This document shows positions 1,011-42,358 of a stretch of 64,000 bases of DNA, one piece after another. Numbering within the stretch: position 1 is the first letter of the stretch; each line of letters starts with the position of its first letter. Position numbers and translations under genes: made by a program. A model generated the notes under the pieces. That model did not search any database. It was not told the origin of the DNA and was given only the letters and a program-made list of their open reading frames with translations. Source of the DNA: Daphnia pulex (lineage: Eukaryota; Arthropoda; Branchiopoda; Diplostraca; Daphniidae); the NCBI RefSeq assembly GCF_021134715.1, contig NC_060019.1, positions 10,120,001 through 10,184,000 of the forward strand. The letters are read 5' to 3'.

Positions 1011-1535
1011 CAAATAAGCATTGGTAATGTTAGAGTCCCCGTTGGGGTACGGCGTGTAGACGGCCAAGGCAACGCAGTTGGCGAAGATGGTCAACAAGAT
1101 CAAATACTCGAACGGTGTGCACAACGAACAATGGGTTAAGGATAATATCATCACAGTTATAAAAGAACTAATTGAATCTAAAAGAAAAAACAACTAAGCT
1201 ATTCGAGCTCGAAGGTAACGAGCTCGTTATTAATAATCAAAAGGATATTTCCACTCGACGACGCTGATGCAGAGCTTTCGCAGAGGATTCGTGAGCGAGA
1301 GGCAAAGGAGAGCTCGTTGCGGTCGTTCCGGAGGAGGTTTTCCTCTTCGACTCATGGCCTTTCTTTTGGCAGCAGCTGCGGCAGCGGCAGCAGCGGCTTC
1401 GGCTTCTGCCAGAGTTTTGGCCGGTCCGGCAGTAGCTGATGGTGCCGTCGCCTGTGCGGCAACGCCTGCGGCCGCGGGAGTTCCAGGTACAACCGGAGTC
1501 TCCGGAGACACGGCCAACCCGTTTTGACTTTCCAT
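1011..1535 (-). CDS. Ca-alpha1D: Voltage-gated L-type calcium channel alpha-1 subunit (Cav1), N-terminal part, truncated by window edge
   Basis: Pore-forming subunit of an L-type (Cav1) plasma-membrane calcium channel. Two coding exons are visible: 1249-1535 and 1011-1116. The protein starts with a Met (1533-1535) preceded by an in-frame TAG, then an Ala/Pro-rich cytoplasmic tail with a run of ten alanines. It continues with the basic motif [14 protein letters not shown] and the segment [14 protein letters not shown], joined to [19 protein letters not shown], which is the start of transmembrane segment IS1. It ends in the extracellular loop [15 protein letters not shown]. These motifs are typical of Cav1 channels of arthropods and vertebrates. 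The remaining domains I-IV lie left of the window. The two exons are joined by a U12-type AT-AC intron, annotated separately. Upstream noncoding exons are likely, because a good acceptor (TTTGCAG) sits about 15 nt before the ATG. Confidence 0.9.
1117..1248 (-). other. U12-type AT-AC intron in the calcium channel gene
   Basis: The exon boundary can only be joined in frame (codons for Lys-Pro-Phe-Glu-Tyr) if the intron begins with ATATCCTTTT at 1248 and ends with GCAC at 1117. The donor matches the minor-spliceosome AT-AC consensus exactly. A perfect U12 branch-site core, TCCTTAAC (minus strand, 1142-1135), lies about 19 nt before the acceptor. Length is 132 nt. Voltage-gated sodium and calcium channel genes are known hosts of conserved AT-AC introns, which fits. 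Confidence 0.9.
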
Positions 1536-3161
1536 GATGATCTATGGCTCTGCAAAGTGCAACACGTCAAGAAATTAAACAAATAGTAGGCTAGTTGGTT
1601 CAAACAACTCACAACTCAGACGGAATATGTAGCCAATTAATAATTCATCGGTTCACTCAGTGTGTGTGTGCCGTTGTGACTGAGTACACACCGCACGCTC
1701 CAGCCCAAAAGAGGATCGATATTCCATTACTTAACAGATATATACGTAGACAGCTTTCCCAGCTCATGTATAGATACCATTGTAATCCAACACGGAAATT
1801 CAGAAGGGAGGGGGGGGGGAATTCATTTCACGTTGGGTAACCTTTTGTATACAGCAAACCAGGTTGACATTGTAGGCTCACCAGATTGCTCCGGTTTACG
1901 GTGAGAAGTTCAATCCAAACCAAATTAGACCCAAAACATAATAAACGACCAAAAAGTTAAAGATTTCAAGTATCGATCAATGCTCATCGTATTTAGCAGA
2001 CTCCTACGTACTGAAGCAAGTCACGTCCTCGGCGAGATGAATTGTGTGAAAAAGAAGAAGAAAGAAAAAACGATATTGTATCCGCCATACCACTGCCATC
2101 CTTATTTTTACGAGACGAACGCATCGCAAAGAAACGTTATTGACGCTAGTCACGCCTGCCTTCAACGGTTGACGACTTGTTCGATTCCTTACCCCGCCCT
2201 TCTCTCTCCCTCCCAACCCTCCGGAAAGGGAAAAGCTTCTTCTAAGAGAGTTAAACACGATCAAATAAAATTTGACTGATGGCAACGTTTTGATGGAGTG
2301 CAGAGTTCTAAACTCTTCACTCGTGTTTCCCCAGAGAAGCAAGACTTTATTTGCTTAGATAAGACTTTTCCTCGTTGGCATTTCTTTTATTTCGTTCTTT
2401 CTTCCTTTTGAAAAGAGGACAACAGGAATGAGACACACGATAAGGATCGATGAACGAGTTAATGAAGCTGCAACAAAGGCAGTACACAACGTGGTGAAGA
2501 GGGATTCTTTTCTGCACTGAATTAAATGAAAAACGAGTCTGAGCAAAAGAAGAGAATCCTAATCAAAGGTTTGGCGATCTAAAAACACGCCGAGCATTGT
2601 GAACAACACTTGGCCGTACGATTTTGGCGGAAAACCGGTTTATCTTGGCTATAATTAACACACAGGAGAGGAGTGAGCCAATTTGGCTAAAACAACGAAT
2701 ACTAACCTATATGTAGATATAAGATGGTCTTTGAAGTCTGCGGGACATTCTTGTAATAACACTGGAGGATCGTGGGTTGAATGTTCAGATATTCAAGCAC
2801 ATTGTGTATTGTTTAGGAACTATAGACTTTCACGCCCGCGCGAGAGCCCGCCAACCATTCGACTAGCAGGATTCACTCGGGGTGGGGAATAAGCTGCTGA
2901 ACACCATGCTGGTCAAGTAAAACCAGATGGCCATGACAAACATTTTTCTGTTCAAATTTTTTTTTAATAGTTAGACCTTATAATTTAAGTGATGAATTTT
3001 TTGGTATTTGAAATGACGAAATTTTGAATAGTTCATCATAACGAAAAAAAAGAACCGAAATTGACTAGTTGCGTCCACAAGCCAAAGGGTGTTGCTAAAC
3101 CACAGTCTTTGCTTCGTCCGTAGTGTTTCCAGAAATAAAAATTAAAAATAACAAGTTAAAG
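1536..3161. other. Divergent intergenic region: calcium channel 5' UTR side and DCP1 promoter side
   Basis: The channel gene (minus) and DCP1 (plus) diverge from this 1.6-kb stretch. It should hold the 5' UTR and promoter of at least one channel isoform and the short upstream region of DCP1. Short ORFs occur on both strands but show no recognisable domain or splice-supported continuation. A G-rich run lies near 1808-1820. No other structured element was recognised. Confidence 0.4.
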
Positions 3162-16655: not shown

Positions 16656-17021
16656 TGTGCTTATTTTAAAAAGATACAATAAAATTCACTGTCTTATAAA
16701 GAAGAAGTTTGAAGGTTTGAAGTTTTCCGTTTTTCGTTTTATTGTAACGTAGCAGACTAAGTAAAAGGGCGTTGCAATTCACGTTCAAAGTTTTATTCAT
16801 TAAAATAATTATAATTAATTGAAATTGAAATAGTAATGATTTGATTTTTATAATTGTTATAATATTTAATACAATTTTATTCTATTTTTTAACTCAATTT
16901 TTAAGATTTTATTTCAAACAATTTGAATGTTCACTTCACTTCCTTCCTACCCCTTCCTAGCAGACAAACTTAAGTTTGTTTTTGACTTTTTGACACGTGT
17001 GAAAAATTGTCTTTAAAAATC
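16656..17021. promoter_or_regulatory. Compact bidirectional promoter region between Nup107 and BCCIP
   Basis: Only 366 nt separate the two start codons, so both 5' UTRs and promoters must lie here. The middle part is strongly AT-rich. No TATA box at a clear distance from either start was identified. An E-box-like CACGTG occurs at 16994-16999 close to the BCCIP start. Confidence 0.55.
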
Positions 17022-18162
17022 ATGGCGAATTTCAATACTAAACGGCCTATGGAAGAAGATAGCAGCGATTCTTCAGAGGAAGAAGAAGAAGAAAATGATT
17101 CTCAAGATGAAGAAATGGGTGAAGATGAGCAACTTGGAGAGAACGACCGAGAGATTCAAGTCGACTTTGAAGGTCAATCACCAATCGCTGAAGATTTTCA
17201 CGGTATCAAGAGTCTAATGCATCAGCTTTTCCTAAAGGCTCATATTAATTTAAGTGGTCTGACGGAACTCATCATTCAGCAAAACTACATTGGAAGTATA
17301 TTACAGGTAATAAAATCTTGTGAAGATGTAATTTGTGTACTTTACTAAAGATATCTACTTCTTCAGCAATGTGTGGATAATGATGAACCTGATAGTGATG
17401 ATGAAGGAAATTCTCTTGATGAAGTTTTTGGAATTACTTCTGTAATTAACTTGACACATCACAAGGTGAGATAAAATTTTGAATTTGTGTTACACAAATT
17501 ACAATTAACCCAATTTTTTTTGTTATTTACTTTTCCTAGGATGTGGAATGTATTAAAGAAGTAAAAAAGTACCTGTTGGAAAAAACACAGAAGAAACTGA
17601 GTGGATTGTTTGATGATCCATCTAACCAGATAGGACTTATATTCAATGAAAGGTTCATAAACATACCACCTCAAGTTTCTGTTCCCCTACTGGAAAATCT
17701 ATGGTATACAAGACTTAATTTGAATTATATCCCAAGTTTAAATGTAAAATTTTGTTAATAGTAAGGAGATTGATGAAGCAAAAAAATCTGGAAAGCCTTT
17801 TGACTTTACACACTTCATTTTAATTTCCAAACTTCATGAATCTACAAGAAAAGATCCTGAATCAAGGAAAAAAAAAGTCAAAGGAGGAGCCACCATATTA
17901 TGGGTTAATGCAGAAGAAGAACCAATTTCAGAGGTATTCATCTATTAATTCCACGCCTAAGTAGAGTAGGTTGTAATAAAATTTCGTCAAATAGATGGGT
18001 GAAATATTAGGAGAATATTCTGTACGAAGCGAGTCAGATGCAGCAGTTTCCGGGACATGGGACGAAGATGACGAACAATTCGATCCGAAAAGAAGGATAG
18101 TCCTTATTACCGCAAAGCAGCTGCCTGAGGTGTTGATTAAAATTAAAGAATTCCTCGAATGA
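17022..18162 (+). CDS. BCCIP: BCCIP (BRCA2 and CDKN1A-interacting protein) homologue
   Basis: Nuclear protein of the BCCIP/Bcp1 family, linked to BRCA2-dependent repair, p21 binding and ribosome biogenesis. Five exons join in frame: 17022-17306, 17367-17465, 17540-17703, 17762-17933, 17995-18162; 295 residues. The N-terminus is highly acidic (DSSDSSEEEEEENDSQDEE). The conserved domain contains IQVDFEGQSPIAEDFHGIKS, LIIQQNYIGSILQQC, FGITSVINLTHHKDV, FNERFINIPPQVSVPLLENL and FDFTHFILISKLHES, all in the order expected for the family. The last codons overlap a poly(A) hexamer (AATAAA 18162-18167), so the 3' UTR may be extremely short. It converges on FMC1 only about 100 nt away. Confidence 0.93.
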
Positions 18163-18167
18163 ATAAA
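18162..18167 (+). terminator. AATAAA overlapping the BCCIP stop codon
   Basis: The hexamer begins at the last base of the TGA stop (18160-18162). The next 80 nt on the plus strand show no better signal before the convergent FMC1 gene. Confidence 0.5.
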
Positions 18168-18265
18168 ATTCATGTTTTCTGTTTGTTTTAGTTATTATTA
18201 CCAATAACTTAAAAAATCTATTAATTGCATTTATTATTCCTTTCAACTACATCGGTATACACAAT

Positions 18266-18636
18266 CTATTTGGGATCATGGGGTAATTTGAATCCAACCA
18301 TGTCAGCCGTGCTACGCACTGTGCGTTCACCTGAAAGAGAAAAAAGGATTGATATTTTGTATACAACTTCGTTTTGAATAACTGTGTCAAACCTTGGCCG
18401 TGAAATTCTTGTATCAGCGATGCAGCCTTTCTTGAACTTTTCAAATAGCAAAGGTACGTATCAGCCATGTATTTACTTTCTTGTTGGGCTTTGCATGTTT
18501 GCTCAGCAGTGACCTGATTTCGGCGAAAATTCTTTGAGATAAATTGATATGCTGGCGATTCCCAGAGAGAATTATGACTATGGTTGGTTAGTCGGAGCTC
18601 GCGAATCAATTCTCTGAGCAAAGTTTTGGCGCTCAT
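18266..18636 (-). CDS. FMC1: FMC1, mitochondrial ATP synthase (F1) assembly factor
   Basis: Small mitochondrial matrix protein of the LYR-like FMC1 family, needed for assembly or stability of the F1 part of ATP synthase. Two exons on the minus strand: 18393-18636 and 18266-18330; 102 residues, close to the 113 of human FMC1. Recognised motifs: LLRELIRELRL at the start, AYQFISKNFRRNQVTAEQTC, TYLCYLKSSRKAASLIQEFH, and GERTVRSTADMVGFKLPHDP at the end. The start ATG (18634-18636) overlaps the SRRD stop codon as ATGA on the same strand. Either both proteins come from one dicistronic mRNA, or FMC1 has its own promoter inside SRRD. Confidence 0.93.
18633..18636 (-). other. ATGA overlap: SRRD stop codon and FMC1 start codon
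   Basis: On the minus strand the bases ATGA contain both the FMC1 ATG (18636-18634) and the SRRD TGA (18635-18633). The two reading frames differ by one, as in translationally coupled cistrons. FMC1 homology begins within five residues of this Met, so a further upstream start is not needed. Confidence 0.9.
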
Positions 18637-19575
18637 TTTTCACTAATTAGCTCAGTCTCAGCAGCAGGGTATGTAGGTTCAGGCGATTCCCAAAACGATG
18701 AATGAACACTGTAGATTAGTTCGCTGGGGAAATGGTGGAGACTAAGATCGTTGAAAATGTCGGGAAACCGGAAGTTGTTGGGCACAGCTAGTTCCTCGAC
18801 GATTTCTATAGATCGATGAAGATAATGATAGCTCTTCAAGAAACGATCGGGAGTGTCGAGTCGAATTTTTTCGAAACTGTTGGCGTAAAGAATACAATTT
18901 TCTAGGTGACAAGGACTCCAATTGGTGTAAAGGAGGTTATTGCTGAGTTCTTTAGGACAATGGGGGAAAATGAAAAATGAGCTTGATGACAAAACTGCCT
19001 TTCTTTTTCCTTCACAATTTGTTGCTGCCAACTTCAGTTTCAAGTGACTGATGATGTCTTTTTCAATTGAACTGAAAACAGGATCAAAAACTTCGATTGG
19101 GCATAACAAATGTTCGCCTAAAAGAAGCAGTAATCCAAGCTGATGTTGGGCTGTTTTGCAAGTAGATATCCGTCCAAGCCCAAGACAGATAATTTGTGTT
19201 ATAGGTTTTTTTCTTTTTTCTATTATTTCTGTAAGAAGCGTTAGGAAGCTTTTGTAAAATATGGACAACTCAACTTCTGCTTTAGCTTTTGAAATACTCC
19301 TACATTACAAAGAGGCCAGGAATTAAACACTATAAACAGAAAATTAATATTGCAGGAAAATTACTTTAAACAGGTATCCAATGCAATGGGTTCAAAGACA
19401 GGTGACACTGAAAGAGGATCACTATTTACCAAGCGCTTTGCCTTTGCAGATTTCTTTTTTGAGACAGTCACAAAACCATCAGAATCTGATTTAAAAAAAT
19501 TTAGGATGAAATTACACTTAAAAATATTGGGCAGTTAGCTTACCCAGTAGTCTTACCAGTTGTAGAATTTGCCAT
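18633..19575 (-). CDS. SRRD: SRR1-like protein (SRRD homologue)
   Basis: SRR1-domain protein; the family is linked to circadian input and to haem biosynthesis regulation, but biochemistry is poorly known. Three exons on the minus strand join in frame: 19557-19575, 19365-19485, 18633-19299; 268 residues. The basic N-terminus (VTVSKKKSAKAKR) is followed by the SRR1 signature ITQIICLGLGRISTCKTAQH, then LGEHLLCPIEVFDPVFSSIE and the conserved FIFPHCPKELSNNLLYTNW. Exon 1 is only 19 nt; the donor choice is fixed by phase. The stop codon is shared with the start of FMC1. Confidence 0.9.
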
Positions 19576-20023
19576 TTATTTTACTGAACAACAAAGCAGA
19601 CGAAACTTTCTTGCCTCGGCGAGTTTACAAACGAGCGCCAGCTGGCGGCAAAATGCAAAATGCATAATAATGCAAGATCACAAATTCAAAAGCTAAATCC
19701 AAAATCCGCTTATGCTCATTAAATAGGAAGCAGGGTTAAATGTCATCTTTTCAAAGCAATATTAACATATTTGAAAATTATAAAAATTATAAACAGGAAC
19801 AAATAGTTAAAAAATTTATGGTTTTAAAAATAATATGTTTAAAAACAATGAAGAAAGACATTGAATTTCGACCTTTATTCCCTTCTGACTCCTGTGCTGC
19901 AAAAAATAACAGTGAATTAGATCACAGTTTGTGGAATGAAAAGCAGACCAAATTGGTACACAATCATTTCTTTATTGAAGTAAACAAAATGGATCTCAAA
20001 ATAGTTTACATACAAGTACAAGC
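19576..20023. other. Spacer between SRRD start and LRR gene 3' end
   Basis: Both flanking genes are on the minus strand. The part next to SRRD should hold its promoter and 5' UTR; the part next to 20023 should hold the 3' UTR of the LRR gene. A 10-nt palindrome GCCAGCTGGC lies at about 19636-19645. The plus-strand ORF across 19740-20129 is AT-rich and unsupported. Confidence 0.45.
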
Positions 20024-21996
20024 TTACATCAGACACCAATGCAGAGTAAGTGAAGGTCGTAATCCTTCACGATGTTTGGCAGTCAGTGCCTCTGTAAAGT
20101 TGACAAAGAGTTGCCAACTATCGGGCTGATCGTACCCATTCTCGATCATATCGATTGGAGTTGAAAGACAAAATGTGCGAAGGTTTGTCTTTGATGCCAG
20201 TAACTCAACGATTGAAACCAACGAGGTTAAAGACAATTCGTGCCAGGACAAATCCAGCAAAGAGAGCGCTGACAACGGACCGAGCGTGGTTCGACTCAAC
20301 ACCGTTAACTGCGATTCAACAAACTCATTCGAACTCAAATCGAGGATTCGAAGGTTACTACTGTTTCCAAGATTATTGATCAAAGGTAGAATTTGTTCCC
20401 ACTGCAAGCCCAGCTCATTGGCAGCTAAACTAAGGGATCGCATTGTCTTCCGATGAGCTGATTCTCCGAGATAGCCAAGATCTTCGTCGTTGAGGCAGCA
20501 AGAAGACAAATCGAGCAACTCGAGTCCGCGTTGAAGTGGAGTCAGGAGGTCAGCCAAGCATCCAGCCAATCGATTATGTGCCAGACTGAGTCGTTCTAAC
20601 CGAGGTAACTGGCTCAAGGCAACGGCCATTAATTCAACAGCTTGCGGGTGATCGGTAAGATCGAAAGCACAGCTACCCAAATCTAGGCAACGAACTGAAG
20701 TAAAATGACCCATGTGTGATGCCAAAGTCAGAGCACTGCGACGCTCACAAATCTCAATAAATTTGAGACCAATAAAGTGTTCCGGTAGTTGATCCATCAA
20801 CGCCTCGAGTTTGCGCTCTTCATGCAAGTTTACTTCCAGAAAGCGGACTGTGACGGTAACTGGACTAGGTGAAGGAGCAAATTCATCCTAAGAAAAACAA
20901 ATAATTAACTGCACTGGATTTTAAAATAACAAATTATTACGTAGCGTTGGTGAATCCAACTCAAAATGTCACTTGATTTCTCTGAAATGGATGCGTCTAT
21001 AGTGATGTTAAAAAATGGCATATCCGTCAGATGGCTAAAATCCAGCGCATTTCCATTCCATACACCAATTTCCGGTGGAGTCTTTTCCCCTTGCCAATAA
21101 GCATCATCGTACTTGTTGCCGGTTGAACCCACTGACGGAGGAGTAGCTGACATAACTGGTGTCTCCTCGTCCCACGTTGAAATCTCAAACGTGGATTCAC
21201 AAGTACCCGTAGCCCCATCAACAGCAGCTGCGCCGGAATTGTTCTCCACTTCCGGTTGCCAATAACCGATTACATCATTCGCTTCCCAAGTGTTGGATGA
21301 TCGTCTGGTTGCTGATGCCACTGAATTTTTCTGTTTCATGGCCAATTTCTTGCAACTTCGCATTTTCTTATGCAACCCGGCTAGGATACAGACATCAAGG
21401 ATCTTTGTTATTCTTCTTCCTAGTCGACGAAATTCATCCTCCCACATGAAGCTGCGAATCTCTTGAGAAGTATCCAGTGTCAGATCCAGCACTCGTAGAG
21501 GGCTTACTTGACCTTCATTCTCCAAGGTTCTTTTGACAACAACAAAAAATCCATCCAAGACATGCTTGAAAACCTTTCGAAACAGTTGTCTTTCAGTATC
21601 CCCACCTTCTTTTTCTGGATCCTCGAAATCATCTGATTCAAGAAAAGCTAGCCAACACTGAGAGCAGGTGACATGGATTATTTGAGAAAGCTGAAAGGTT
21701 TCAAACGGCCAGTAGGCAACCAATGAGCGTAGGGCACACCACTGTTTGGATGCAAACAGTAAACAGGCCACATCAACATACAGCACAGGTGGGATAAAGT
21801 TATCTTGCAGTATCTTTGGAATTTCATGATATTTGTTTATCTGCTTCAGGTACTTGAAAAGTGACTGGATAGCCAGCTCCTTTAACGGTGAAATACTAGA
21901 GGTGCAATTACTGCATTTTTTTTCTTTTCCCTTTACGTGGACTGCCCACTCGGACCAAAGGGGAAGTTTGAAAGGAGTATTACTAGTTGCTTCCAT
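20024..21996 (-). CDS. Leucine-rich repeat protein of the LRRC14/PRAME-like family
   Basis: Two exons on the minus strand: 20941-21996 and 20024-20887; 639 residues. The N-terminal part contains PPVLYVDVACLLFASKQWCA followed by LRSLVAYWPFETFQL, which matches the conserved start of LRRC14/PRAME proteins (leucine-rich, then HTWPF). The C-terminal half carries LRR units such as LERLSLAHNRLAG, LELLDLSSCCLNDEDLGYLG, MRSLSLAANELG, LRILDLSSNEF and LSLLDLSWHELSL. Vertebrate LRRC14 modulates NF-kB signalling and some PRAME-family members act with Cullin-2 ligases; whether this protein does either is unknown. The region in between (about 210-330) is Ser/Thr/Glu-rich and lineage-specific. A CxxC (CSNC) sits near residue 28-31. 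Confidence 0.8.
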
Positions 21997-24900
21997 TCTT
22001 ATCTAAATATTAAAAAAAAAAATAATTATGTGATTAGACCAACATTTTTTCTCATACAAAAAAATATACTTTCTAAACACTGTCACTATCTTCCATCATT
22101 CAGACTTGATCAAATGTTTGGTTGAGTTGTCTATTTCACTAGTGGAAGTCAAATCAAGACAAACAATAGAGAACGAAATTTTAGATGCAAGTTCACAACG
22201 GGTTTGTATCTGACAAGTGTGTCGATTTGTGTTTACCTTACAGAAATGAGAAAAAGGAAAATTCGCCTGCTTTGGACTGTTTCGTTGTTGATATCCCTTT
22301 CTTCCACAGATGTCGTTCGTTGTGCATGTAGAAAAATATAAATTTGTTAACAGATATGTAATGTGAACTTTATTAATCGCATTTTAAATGATTTATTTGT
22401 GGGATTAACTCAATTTAAAAAAGGTATTTCAGTTGGAAAAAGTTCACCCGACGAATGAGCCCGCGTAATTCAAATCGTTACAGCAAAACAGTACCGATCA
22501 AGCCAAACGGAGGGGGGAAGCGTCCATTTATAATATGTAAAACTCAGAAATTGTGATTAGTAGAAATTAGAAGGTTTTGAAAATTAATTTCTCCTTACCA
22601 AAGTCGAAAATATCATTAGTTTGTCGATGGTACGGTTGAAAAAACAATTTGCCTGCTCGGACGGCTGCTGCCTGCTAGTGACATAAGAATTTCTCTATCT
22701 ACCCCAGATGTCGTTGTAATAAAAAAAAATCAATTTTCGTTCAAACTGAATAATAATGCAACTTTTTTTCCGATTATTGTCAATTACTACACGAGGAAAT
22801 CGTTCGAATTTAATAATCTACATGCCTGAATTTCATTATTCTACTGGATAATGATAAATTAGGATTAAATGTCGATCCTTTCCTGATTTGGAAGGGTCCA
22901 TGACGATCGATAATGTCATGATAATTGTCAGCACTGAGCTTCCCAACAATCTGGATCAGGAATCTCATCCGGCGCTCTCTGCTTAAATGCCCTCCAAAAA
23001 CGGTTACAATATGATTGACGTTTGTCAATCATATTTTCCAAGTAACGTATATACGATCATACGCATACGCCGCTCCCGCCATGAAGTCGATCGATCGATC
23101 GGGGTGGGTAGCTCATGAAGTCATGTGACACAGCGTGATTTCTTCTATTCTTCTTTTGTTCCGTTCACCTGTTGACTTAACTGTGGATGATGCTGAAGCT
23201 GTTTCCATTTGGAAGCATCTTGGTCGTCTCAGATTTATTCACTAATGAGAATTTCATCAAAATAATAGAAAACTTCCCAATTGATTCGCCGTTGTTGTTG
23301 CTGGAGCAGATTCAATTTCCGCCTTTTCATAATAGAACGGAACGAAGACCTTTCGATGCCAACTAGACGAAAGCCTCTCTCAAATGAGGCGAAGGTGCTT
23401 TAGTCTTTATTCCTCTTTGTCCCCTACTGCCTGACGCCGAAGAAGATGTCTGCCATTTTTAAAAAGTCCAATTTTTCCCCAAATATTTCTATTTAAAGGA
23501 ACTCCTTTTTTTTTACTGTCTGCTTCTATTTACTTATTCCAATCGATCTTATACACGCTGAATATAAATCATTGACAACAAAAAATATTGACAGTTTTAT
23601 TTTATTTCTAGGATGTTTCTCCCTTTTTTTTGTGTAATCTTACAAATACACCGAGTCGCTTCAAACAGATTTGATTTCTGCTTGGCGGGTGGATCATATA
23701 TATATATATGCAATCCTCCGCTTCCCACACCGACTCGTCGTGTGGTGTGTATATATGTATCGATCGGGCGTGATGTGTGTGTAACATCGACCCGGTTTCG
23801 GTTGCGTTGGTGGCGGTCAAATGCGTCTATGATTCCATCAACCATCATCACACGGATCGGCTGTCCACTGAAAGAAAAGAACCATATGATGTACGTAACA
23901 TACAGGATCAAGTGGCATTCAATTGAGAGAAAACTAAGAACTAGAGTTTCAGAGAAAAGAAAGACCAATATTACAAACTGGAGATTGGCACATGGGGGTG
24001 TGTTGGAGAGCCCTTATTTTTTGTTTTCAAAACAATTTGAAACTGCAGCCGATATTCAACGACGCCTTTTTAAAAATTTCACTTGTATTCCGATCGATTT
24101 TTTTCCCACGAGTATGTATGTGTGTGTATATACCTATAGCCTGAGCCCTTACGAGTGTGTGCCATACAGAGGCGCCCCTCATTGGAAACGCTTCGTCAAA
24201 CAAATCAACACAACGTAACACACAGCCATCGGGTTTCCAGCAGCTTGATGTTGTCCACGCTCTGTAAAAATAAGAAGAAATCCTTATTTTGACGCCAGCT
24301 GTTTTATAAAATGTCTTAATTCTTCTCGGAAGCAAACAGCAATTTCAACAAGGAAATTTTCGTAAAATAAAAAAAAACGTCGCGAGGGATACTCTGCGCC
24401 GTGATCGATTCGGAGCAGCTGTCAAATTGCGTTCGACGCGATAGGTGGCAGCACAGTCGATTGAGATTGGGGTGGAAGAAGAAGAAGGTTTCGCAGTCGT
24501 TGTCGTTTAGACTGTAGAGCTCGCAGCTCGCCCCCAATGGCGAGTTTGACCGTCATATCCGCGCTTGATGGCGCCAGGCAGTACACGAACGATTTAGTCC
24601 GTCGGGGCGGGACGACGTGACAGTGGGGAAACAGTGCCATGTCGTGAAACATTAACTTGTGGGTTTTCGTAGAAAACGGAACAGACTACTATACTACTGC
24701 TGCCTACACGAGACAACACACATCATGGCTGTGGTGGTTCCCAGTTGAGAGGGACACCACCGTGAAGACGACAACAACGAGACCGTGGAACAAGCAAAAA
24801 CCCAGACTCCATTACCTCCCCCTCTCTCTACTAACACATCCTTCATCGTTCGCACAACAACAATGTGTGCTGTGTCTCCTGAAAACGTGAAGAAAATGTG

Positions 24901-32073: not shown

Positions 32074-34409
32074 ATGTCAGACAAGGAAGGTGTCGAAGAA
32101 AAGGTACAGTTTTTGATCAGAACAAATTATGTTTTACTATCTACTTCTCAAGTTACTGTGAAATGACCTTTTTCCCGCCAAACCGTTTTCCTAAGCATGG
32201 TCTTTTTCTCAACGATTTGTTTCTTTCAATAGGAAGTGACAACTGAAGATGTTGTTAATGAAGAAAATACAATTAAAGGACAAAAAAGAAAGAGACCTGT
32301 CGCTAAGGCAACTCCATCCAAGAAAAAGTTGAAGTCTGAAGAACCACCTGTATCTGAAGAAAATGACAAAACTGAAACAGAAGAAGGTAATCTAGAGCAG
32401 TAGTTTTAAATTGTGCTTGATTTTCATGATGTTTGATCAATTTATAGATGAAGAGATGCCATTGGGACTTCTGGATCGTTCACCAGAAATGACTGGAACC
32501 AGAATTCGCAAACAGGTGGAGAGACTTACCATCAACACCCCCGCTGCATCAGAAAAACCTGATCGCAAAAAATATGAACAAATCCCAGGAAGAGGAGTGA
32601 AGCTGGGTACATCCCCAAGAATTGCATCACAATTAATGGTATTATTACTAATTGGATGTCGACATTTAAAATTTCCATAACCATCTCATAATTTTTTTTT
32701 CACATGTCTAATTTAGACTTTTAAGCACACTAAGATGACTCTTCTTCATAGACTACTATTCAAAAGACCTGGAACTGCTTATGAAATTAAACGGAATGTT
32801 AGAGAGTTCTCAGGGTTCCCTTTTGAGAAAAAAGATAAAGAATTTGAGTCCAGGAAGCACATGCTGGAAAAGTAATAAATACTTATATATATAATTATAT
32901 ATATATTGTACTGTTATAATTACAAATGTATTATTCTAGGAATAACTTGGTTGACCTGAAGGACATCTGTCAAATTCTATGCCTGGAAAAGGGCGGCACC
33001 AAAGAGGCTATCATTGAGCGGATACTAGAATTTTGCCTGTGCCCTAATCCGAGCAGTAAACCGACCCCTAAGAAAACCAAAAAGAAAACTAAAGAAAGCA
33101 AGAAAAAGGTCAAAGCCAAAAGCGACGACGAAAAAGCTGCACGAAGCAGTCCCAAGAAGAACATTACCTCAAATGAAACTGTCGAGGACGATTCGAGCAG
33201 CTCAGACGAAGAAGCGGAAGGCGAATCGGAATCTGAAAAGGAATCACCTGAGCCAACTCCAGTAAAAAAAGGCACCAAGAAACCTGCGGCTCCCAAACCT
33301 GTTAAAGAATCCGCAACACTGAAATCGAATAAAAAAGTTCCTGCTTCAAAAGCAAATAAAGAAGCGTCCGAAAACAAATCCCAAAAGGAAACCGACGACG
33401 ATTCGAGCAGCTCAGACGAAGAAGCGGAAGGCGAATCATCTGAAAAGGAATCACCTGAGCCAACTCCAGTAAAGAAAGGCACCAAGAAGACTGTTGCACC
33501 CAAACCTGTTAAAGAAGCCGCAACACCGAAAGCAAATAAAAAAGTTCCTGCGGCAAAAACAAAGAAAGAAGCATCGGAAACCAAATCCAAAAAGAAAACC
33601 GAGGACGATTCGAGTAGTTCGGACGACGAAGCGGAAAAAGAATTATCTGAAAAGGAATCACCTGAAAAAGAATCACCGGAATCGACTCCAGTAAAGAAAG
33701 TTACCAAAAAGACTGCGGCACCCAAAGCTGTTAAAGAAGCTGCAACACCGAAAGTGAATAAAAAAGCTCCTGCTGCAAAAGCAACCAAAGCAGCATCGGA
33801 AACCAAATCCAAAAAGAAAACACCTAAAAAGTCTCCCAAGAAAGCTGAAATCAAAGTTAAGTTACCCCCTGTGAATAAGGCCAAAAAGAAGGCACCGGCT
33901 GTGATGTCTGACTCGGAGGGAGAAGAAGATAAGAATTCTGCAGACACATCAGCGGACAAGAGCATCGAAAATGAAAAGTCAGCAGAAGAATCATCTCCTA
34001 AGAAATCAGCAAAAGAAACATCTCCATCTCCTGAAAAATCAGCAGGAGAATCATCTCCACCTTCTAGAAAATCCTCCGACAAAGATGAAGATCAAACTGA
34101 AGTGTCGCAAGCCCCGGCAAAAAGTCCGAAATCTAAATCTGAACCGACAGTAAAAATAACTATTATCCATTTTCGAGTCCATTAAACTATTATCTTATTC
34201 ATTTTTAGAACGACGAGCTGGCAAACACTATCAAGCAAATCATTAATGATGCTAACTTAGAAGACATGACTATGAAAAACTTGTGTCGTCAAGTGTACAA
34301 TAAATTCCCAGAATATGAACTGGAGAAAACGAGGAAAGAGTTCATCCGGTCGAAAGCTAAGGAGGTAATAATGTCATTGTTGTGCAATAGTTCCGTTTTA
34401 AATTTTTAA
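32074..34409 (+). CDS. DEK: DEK chromatin protein
   Basis: Abundant chromatin-associated DNA-binding protein, implicated in chromatin architecture and histone handling. Six exons join in frame: 32074-32103, 32233-32386, 32448-32638, 32717-32871, 32940-34149, 34209-34409; 646 residues. The SAP/pseudo-SAP region is clear: GRGVKLGTSPRIASQL, MTLLHRLLFKRPGTAYEIKR, REFSGFPFEKKDKEF, and NNLVDLKDICQILCLEKGGT with KEAIIERILEFCLCP. A long Lys/Ser/Glu/Pro region encoded by one exon contains tandem repeats, annotated separately. The DEK-C domain ends the protein: IINDANLEDMTMKNLCRQVY and EFIRSKAKE. The last codons after KAKE read into what could also be a donor (GAG|GTAATA), so a final extra exon cannot be excluded. 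The protein is much longer than human DEK (375) because of the repeat region. Confidence 0.9.
33180..33830 (+). repeat. Tandem ~210-bp coding repeats inside DEK
   Basis: Three imperfect units of roughly 68-72 codons, each with an acidic casein-kinase-like cluster (DDSSSSDEEAE), then KESPEPTPVKKxTKK, then APKxVKExAT and a Lys/Ala-rich spacer ending in KTKKE or similar. The units differ by short in-frame changes, including an extra EKESPEK in the third. On the opposite strand this composition leaves a long open frame (32970-34082) that is an artefact. Confidence 0.85.

Positions 34410-37211: not shown

Positions 37212-42358
<5,147 letters not shown>

Follow-up and report, generated by a model that had tools for sequence, protein, structure and literature searches.

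A putative dicistronic SRRD-FMC1 mRNA in Daphnia pulex with a first open reading frame nearly free of internal AUG codons

SRRD and FMC1 are neighboring genes of Daphnia pulex in which the stop codon of the first overlaps the start codon of the second. We think it rather likely that they are expressed from one dicistronic SRRD-FMC1 mRNA and that the second open reading frame (ORF) is reached mainly via leaky scanning. A single promoter upstream of SRRD would produce one spliced mRNA, with its 3' end defined by the AATAAA at 18235. The SRRD AUG would be the start for most ribosomes. Some ribosomes would bypass it, given a weak context (T at -3) and a leader that is probably very short. After scanning ~800 nt that are nearly AUG-free, these ribosomes would initiate at FMC1, whose AUG is preceded by A at -3. 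They would meet two out-of-frame AUGs en route, each opening an ORF of only a few codons (3 and 6), and scanning could resume afterwards.

The gene structures, the overlap, the AUG depletion, the start contexts and the poly(A) layout are all seen in the sequence. From these features we infer the single mRNA, its transcription start site, the mechanism of translation and selection against AUG. Coordinates refer to the window, the whole 64-kb stretch of DNA that was analyzed (Table 1).

Table 1. Positions of SRRD, FMC1, associated sequence elements and neighboring genes in the window.
Feature	Coordinates	Strand	Basis or remark
SRRD (ORF1)	18633..19575; coding exons 19575-19557, 19485-19365, 19299-18633	minus	268 aa; spliced translation
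FMC1 (ORF2)	18266..18636; coding exons 18636-18393, 18330-18266	minus	102 aa; spliced translation
ATGA, FMC1 start and SRRD stop with two bases in common	18633..18636	minus	sequence
SRRD introns	19556-19486 and 19364-19300	minus	GT-AG; splice sites inferred from sequence
FMC1 intron (single)	18392-18331	minus	GT-AG; splice sites inferred from sequence
AUG-poor corridor between start codons, 800 spliced nt, ATGs at 19479 and 19104	18637..19572	minus	ATG count
TCAGT, initiator-like, just upstream of SRRD ATG	19583..19587	minus	motif scan
Two TCAGT, initiator-like (19075, 19051), candidate internal start sites	19047..19075	minus	motif scan
AATAAA, probable shared poly(A) signal	18230..18235	minus	motif scan
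Nup84/Nup107-family gene	up to ~16685	minus	Pfam match in 3/3 scanned segments of four
BCCIP-family gene	~17021-18162	plus	Pfam match in 3/3 scanned segments
Leucine-rich-repeat ORF upstream of SRRD	20024-20887	minus	Pfam scan
Further ORF upstream of SRRD, without match	20905-22002	minus	Pfam scan

Gene structures and their surroundings

The first-pass annotation described SRRD and FMC1 as two unrelated conserved proteins encoded on one strand, and we found both ORFs, on the minus strand, each matching a Pfam family. SRRD exon 3 matched SRR1 (PF07985) with an E value of 4.7e-38 and 131.2 bits (curated cut-off 24). The spliced FMC1 protein matched Complex1_LYR_2 (PF13233) with an E value of 1e-6 and 29.8 bits (curated cut-off 22.3). 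Because both exceed the curated cut-offs, chance ORFs are ruled out for SRRD and for FMC1. Pfam places the second protein in the LYR family only; among LYR proteins, we take it to be FMC1 from its C-terminal region. FMC1 is an assembly factor of ATP synthase. Two papers (PMC12455975, PMC10219947) describe SRR1 proteins as having no known biochemical function, and therefore we claim no functional link between SRRD and FMC1.

The two-base overlap of stop and start was confirmed: the SRRD TGA lies at 18635-18633 and the FMC1 ATG at 18636-18634, in a reading frame different from that of SRRD. We considered a frame error and rejected it, as both frames are intact in the assembly sequence. With the predicted exons, there is no space for a separate FMC1 5' UTR outside the SRRD coding sequence, as the first-pass annotation had stated, unless the leader is spliced. 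An 11-mer, TGGGAATCGCC, is present twice on the minus strand, 128 nt apart, at 18692-18682 (the SRRD end, FWESP) and at 18564-18554 (FMC1, LWESP), which may be chance.

We searched the genome (133,188,837 bases, 13 contigs) for further copies. A protein search with FMC1 found its two exons at the present locus and at no other place, and an SRR1 family search found the present SRRD locus only. An exon-by-exon search with the LYR_2 family, which missed FMC1 itself at a threshold of E 1e-3, found one other LYR gene, with a PF13233 exon at 1498-1803 (plus strand) of locus L004, elsewhere on contig C3. This exon looks like part of an LYRM5/ETFRF1-type protein, and on that likeness the gene was rejected as a second FMC1 copy. 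PDB sequence searches found no relative, and an Rfam scan of 18000-20200 gave nothing at the gathering score. No relative was found of SRRD exon 3 or FMC1 in a viral contig collection, or of SRRD exon 3 in a prokaryote contig collection; these collections, being viral and prokaryotic, are uninformative here.

The gene arrangement around SRRD-FMC1 is compact. Between 19300 and 18100, the motif scan found a single minus-strand AATAAA, which begins at 18235, 31 nt beyond the end of the FMC1 stop codon. There was no ATTAAA in the same interval and strand, and neither hexamer lies between the SRRD and FMC1 stops. Because the sole AATAAA follows the FMC1 stop, the SRRD mRNA probably includes FMC1. 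Weaker hexamers are present between both stop codons (AGTAAA at 18477, AATACA at 18473 and AATAGA at 18270), and an earlier poly(A) site at one of these may end the SRRD mRNA before the FMC1 stop. The BCCIP gene, with an AATAAA at plus-strand 18162, is convergent with FMC1; their stop codons are ~100 nt apart and their AATAAA signals ~70 nt apart (18162-18235).

AUG content of SRRD

We found that ATG is scarce between the two start codons. The 800-nt corridor contains 2 ATGs, compared to 12.5 expected from composition (observed/expected 0.16, Poisson P 3.4e-4). The spliced SRRD coding sequence has four: its own start, those at 19479 and 19104, and the FMC1 start. The ATG at 19479 opens a 3-codon ORF (MVL, stop) and that at 19104 a 6-codon ORF (MPNRSF, stop). 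Dinucleotide bias fails to explain the scarcity because the first-order Markov expectation for the coding sequence is 12.0. CTG (16) and TTG (24) are not scarce in it. Past its start, FMC1 has a normal ATG density (4 in 306 nt; 4.7 expected), and ten coding stretches of neighboring genes have observed/expected ratios of 0.64-1.76. A 2x2 test of SRRD versus FMC1 ATG density gave P 0.052.

A new observation is that SRRD has no methionine but its first. The initiator is followed by 267 residues with zero Met, an absence with P 0.002 at the Met frequency of the neighbors (31/1362, six coding stretches) and P 0.017 at the pooled 1.5% Met of 51 long ORFs. These 51 were the ORFs with 150 or more codons across 264 kb (the 64-kb window plus 20 stretches), and SRRD exon 3 had the lowest ATG observed/expected ratio among them (0.10). 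Three others were also Met-free, one with a simple repeat by eye, and none of the three had a Pfam match at E 0.01. Of 3675 overlapping 800-nt segments of similar GC, 11 hold two or fewer ATGs.

It is possible, though doubtful, that SRRD was purged of every internal Met as a scanning corridor to FMC1. FMC1 dose would then be inverse to SRRD initiation, and translation of one housekeeping gene would limit how the protein of another can evolve.

Several results weaken the case for selection against AUG. Shuffling synonymous codons with the protein fixed gave a mean of 4.66 ATGs versus the 4 observed (P 0.46), indicating no extra avoidance at synonymous sites. Shuffling the codon order of SRRD gave a mean of 9.5 (P 0.013). 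Because of these two results, we attribute the depletion to residue choice and residue order, not codon choice, and constraint on the SRR1 family may be the cause of the low AUG content. GTA is also scarce in the SRRD coding sequence (3 versus 12.7 from composition and 5.9 from the Markov model). Of 301 overlapping 223-codon segments from 19 other ORFs, 31 (in 6 ORFs) lacked Met, and 17 (from 5 ORFs) both lacked Met and held no more than 2 ATGs, ten of these coming from one Lys/Glu/Ser-rich ORF. AUG-poor coding stretches of this kind are therefore uncommon, rather than unique.

Two plus-strand ORFs were also noted. One (32920-34182, 421 codons, Lys/Glu/Ser-rich) has 6 ATGs versus 16.5, perhaps from biased composition; it has a weak SAP-domain match, below the cut-off, and is presumably DEK-like. 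In the other (38144-39568, 475 codons), 11 of 26 segments of 223 codons are Met-free, with out-of-frame ATGs present.

The low AUG content could instead be chance or an SRR1 family property, with FMC1 reached otherwise, e.g., by an IRES. The synonymous shuffle is in keeping with this explanation, as is the presence of AUG-poor stretches in five of the 19 long ORFs compared, but the composition-based P value and the rank of SRRD exon 3 below all 50 other long ORFs argue against it, and we consider it the least probable of those weighed here.

The depletion differs by part. ATG is absent from the 440 nt adjoining FMC1 (6.2 expected, P 0.002), and the first 360 nt of SRRD contain 2 (6.3 expected), which is marginal (P 0.049). 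Because the 5' part is marginal, an internal promoter near 19075, an option already raised in the first-pass annotation, has to be considered. The FMC1 promoter would be inside SRRD exon 3, the last ~400 nt of SRRD would be the FMC1 5' UTR, and a longer SRRD mRNA would mostly translate SRRD. A role as 5' UTR explains the lack of ATG from 19075 to the FMC1 start, and TCAGT is found at 19075 and 19051. There is also precedent in Drosophila: at 69 of 159 dicistronic loci, one of the genes is on both monocistronic and dicistronic transcripts (PMC4528330). However, short motifs such as TCAGT recur by chance, a TATA box was not found anywhere from 20050 to 18300, and neither TCAGT site in SRRD exon 3 has a DPE match at the expected spacing. 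An internal promoter also leaves the Met-free 5' part of SRRD (marginal as it is) and the weak SRRD start unexplained. We regard this, the main alternative, as unlikely.

Start contexts and routes to the FMC1 start codon

At positions -3 and +4, the SRRD start carries T and G, respectively, and the FMC1 start carries A at both. The SRRD start is the weaker at -3, the yardstick being the general rule of a purine at -3 and not a Daphnia consensus. No ATG begins from 19664 to 19576. The putative transcription start comes from TCAGT only; if the motif at 19587-19583 marks it, this suggests an SRRD leader of ~10 nt. Short leaders have been tied to leaky scanning (PMC11892635, citing Kozak 1991).

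The poly(A) layout, the AUG-depleted ORF1 and the weak-then-strong start contexts support the dicistronic mRNA proposed in the first-pass annotation. Of the two routes to FMC1 offered there, leaky scanning is a better fit than termination-reinitiation. The FMC1 intron begins 240 nt past the SRRD stop. An intron downstream of a stop codon can invite nonsense-mediated decay (NMD), and NMD invited in this way could count against a dicistronic mRNA.

In coupled termination-reinitiation, ribosomes ending SRRD at the ATGA (18636-18633) would step back and restart at FMC1. The stop/start overlap is of the type expected, and TGGGA is present at 18692, 56 nt upstream of the FMC1 ATG; UGGGA is a reinitiation motif. 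Coupled reinitiation is reported for some human mRNAs, as are aspartate runs in these cases (PMC3923131), and the SRRD C-terminus lacks such runs. The five bases of TGGGA are frequent by chance, and the RNA structure at the junction is ordinary (z -0.62; 48 of 200 shuffles fold as well). This mechanism also requires no AUG-poor ORF1, and we judge it quite improbable.

FMC1 would also receive a short leader, with most of SRRD skipped, if transcripts from the SRRD promoter were alternatively spliced to an exon 3 acceptor or if a leader were trans-spliced. Exon 3 holds nine acceptor-like AGs (at least 10 pyrimidines among the 14 preceding bases), including those at 19118, 19072 and 18724, but such AGs are common by chance, and a leader retaining the SRRD AUG would still require its bypass. 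This alternative seems to us slightly less probable still than coupled reinitiation.

If leaky scanning on a dicistronic mRNA is correct, SRRD-FMC1 would be a crustacean two-protein mRNA with a long first ORF nearly cleared of AUGs, and that ORF makes it a clean, testable example. This reading would also predict that FMC1 expression shapes the residue content of SRRD, and a comparison among Daphnia species could check this. The locus also suggests a genome-only screen for dicistronic genes, based on same-strand ORFs with near-zero spacing and a Met-free first ORF. Loci of this kind may be overlooked or wrongly split when an annotation pipeline allows each mRNA a single ORF.

Comparison with known systems

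Our literature search found no paper on SRRD with FMC1 or on a dicistronic SRR1-like/FMC1 gene. Nothing on SRRD-FMC1 was among the matches listed for Daphnia dicistrons, operons and trans-splicing or for arthropod and crustacean leaky scanning. SRRD-FMC1 is a new gene pair; there are precedents for the mechanism, and fly genomes are already known to contain such arrangements. FlyBase listed 159 dicistronic pairs in Drosophila, some of which appear to meet the requirements for scanning and most of which do not (PMC4528330). SRRD-FMC1 would belong to the minority that do. Given these 159 pairs, plus stoned, Snapin and Sloth1/2, calling the constraint on the junction unusual for an animal genome was overstated.

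Coupled termination-reinitiation, in some human mRNAs (PMC3923131) and, according to the work cited there, in caliciviruses and influenza B, resembles SRRD-FMC1 in the overlap of stop and start. It differs in that the SRRD-FMC1 junction is without unusual structure or aspartate runs, and in that an AUG-poor ORF1 is no part of the mechanism. lemmingA provides a contrast, with three more in-frame AUGs in its ORF1 and a second ORF that was not efficiently translated (PMC3372440).

Reporter work on the Drosophila dicistronic loci stoned (stnA/stnB) and Snapin pointed to a dependence of ORF2 on leaky scanning (Wall 2005, cited by PMC11892635, PMC3372440 and PMC4528330). As in SRRD-FMC1, ORF1 in both is poor in internal AUGs and has a start off consensus (PMC11892635). 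The genes are different, and the mechanism there was tested with reporters, whereas ours is read from sequence. Leaky scanning is also supported by reporters for Drosophila Sloth1/Sloth2 (PMC9681215). This pair likewise has a near-zero gap between ORFs (5 nt), a non-optimal followed by an optimal start context, and a role in mitochondrial complex assembly (PMC9681215). Unlike SRRD and FMC1, Sloth1 and Sloth2 are two paralogous small peptides, and ORF1 is 79 aa, compared to 268 aa for SRRD.

The bicistrons of the green algae Chlamydomonas and Auxenochlorella share a weak ORF1 start, a short 5' UTR (predicted in the case of SRRD-FMC1) and AUG depletion before ORF2 (PMC11892635). Apart from being algal, they differ in degree, with a median observed/expected ratio before ORF2 of 0.49 and 0.48, compared to 0.16 here by a similar, not identical, measure. 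In these algae, restoring one Met codon to ORF1 led to far less ORF2 activity (PMC11892635).
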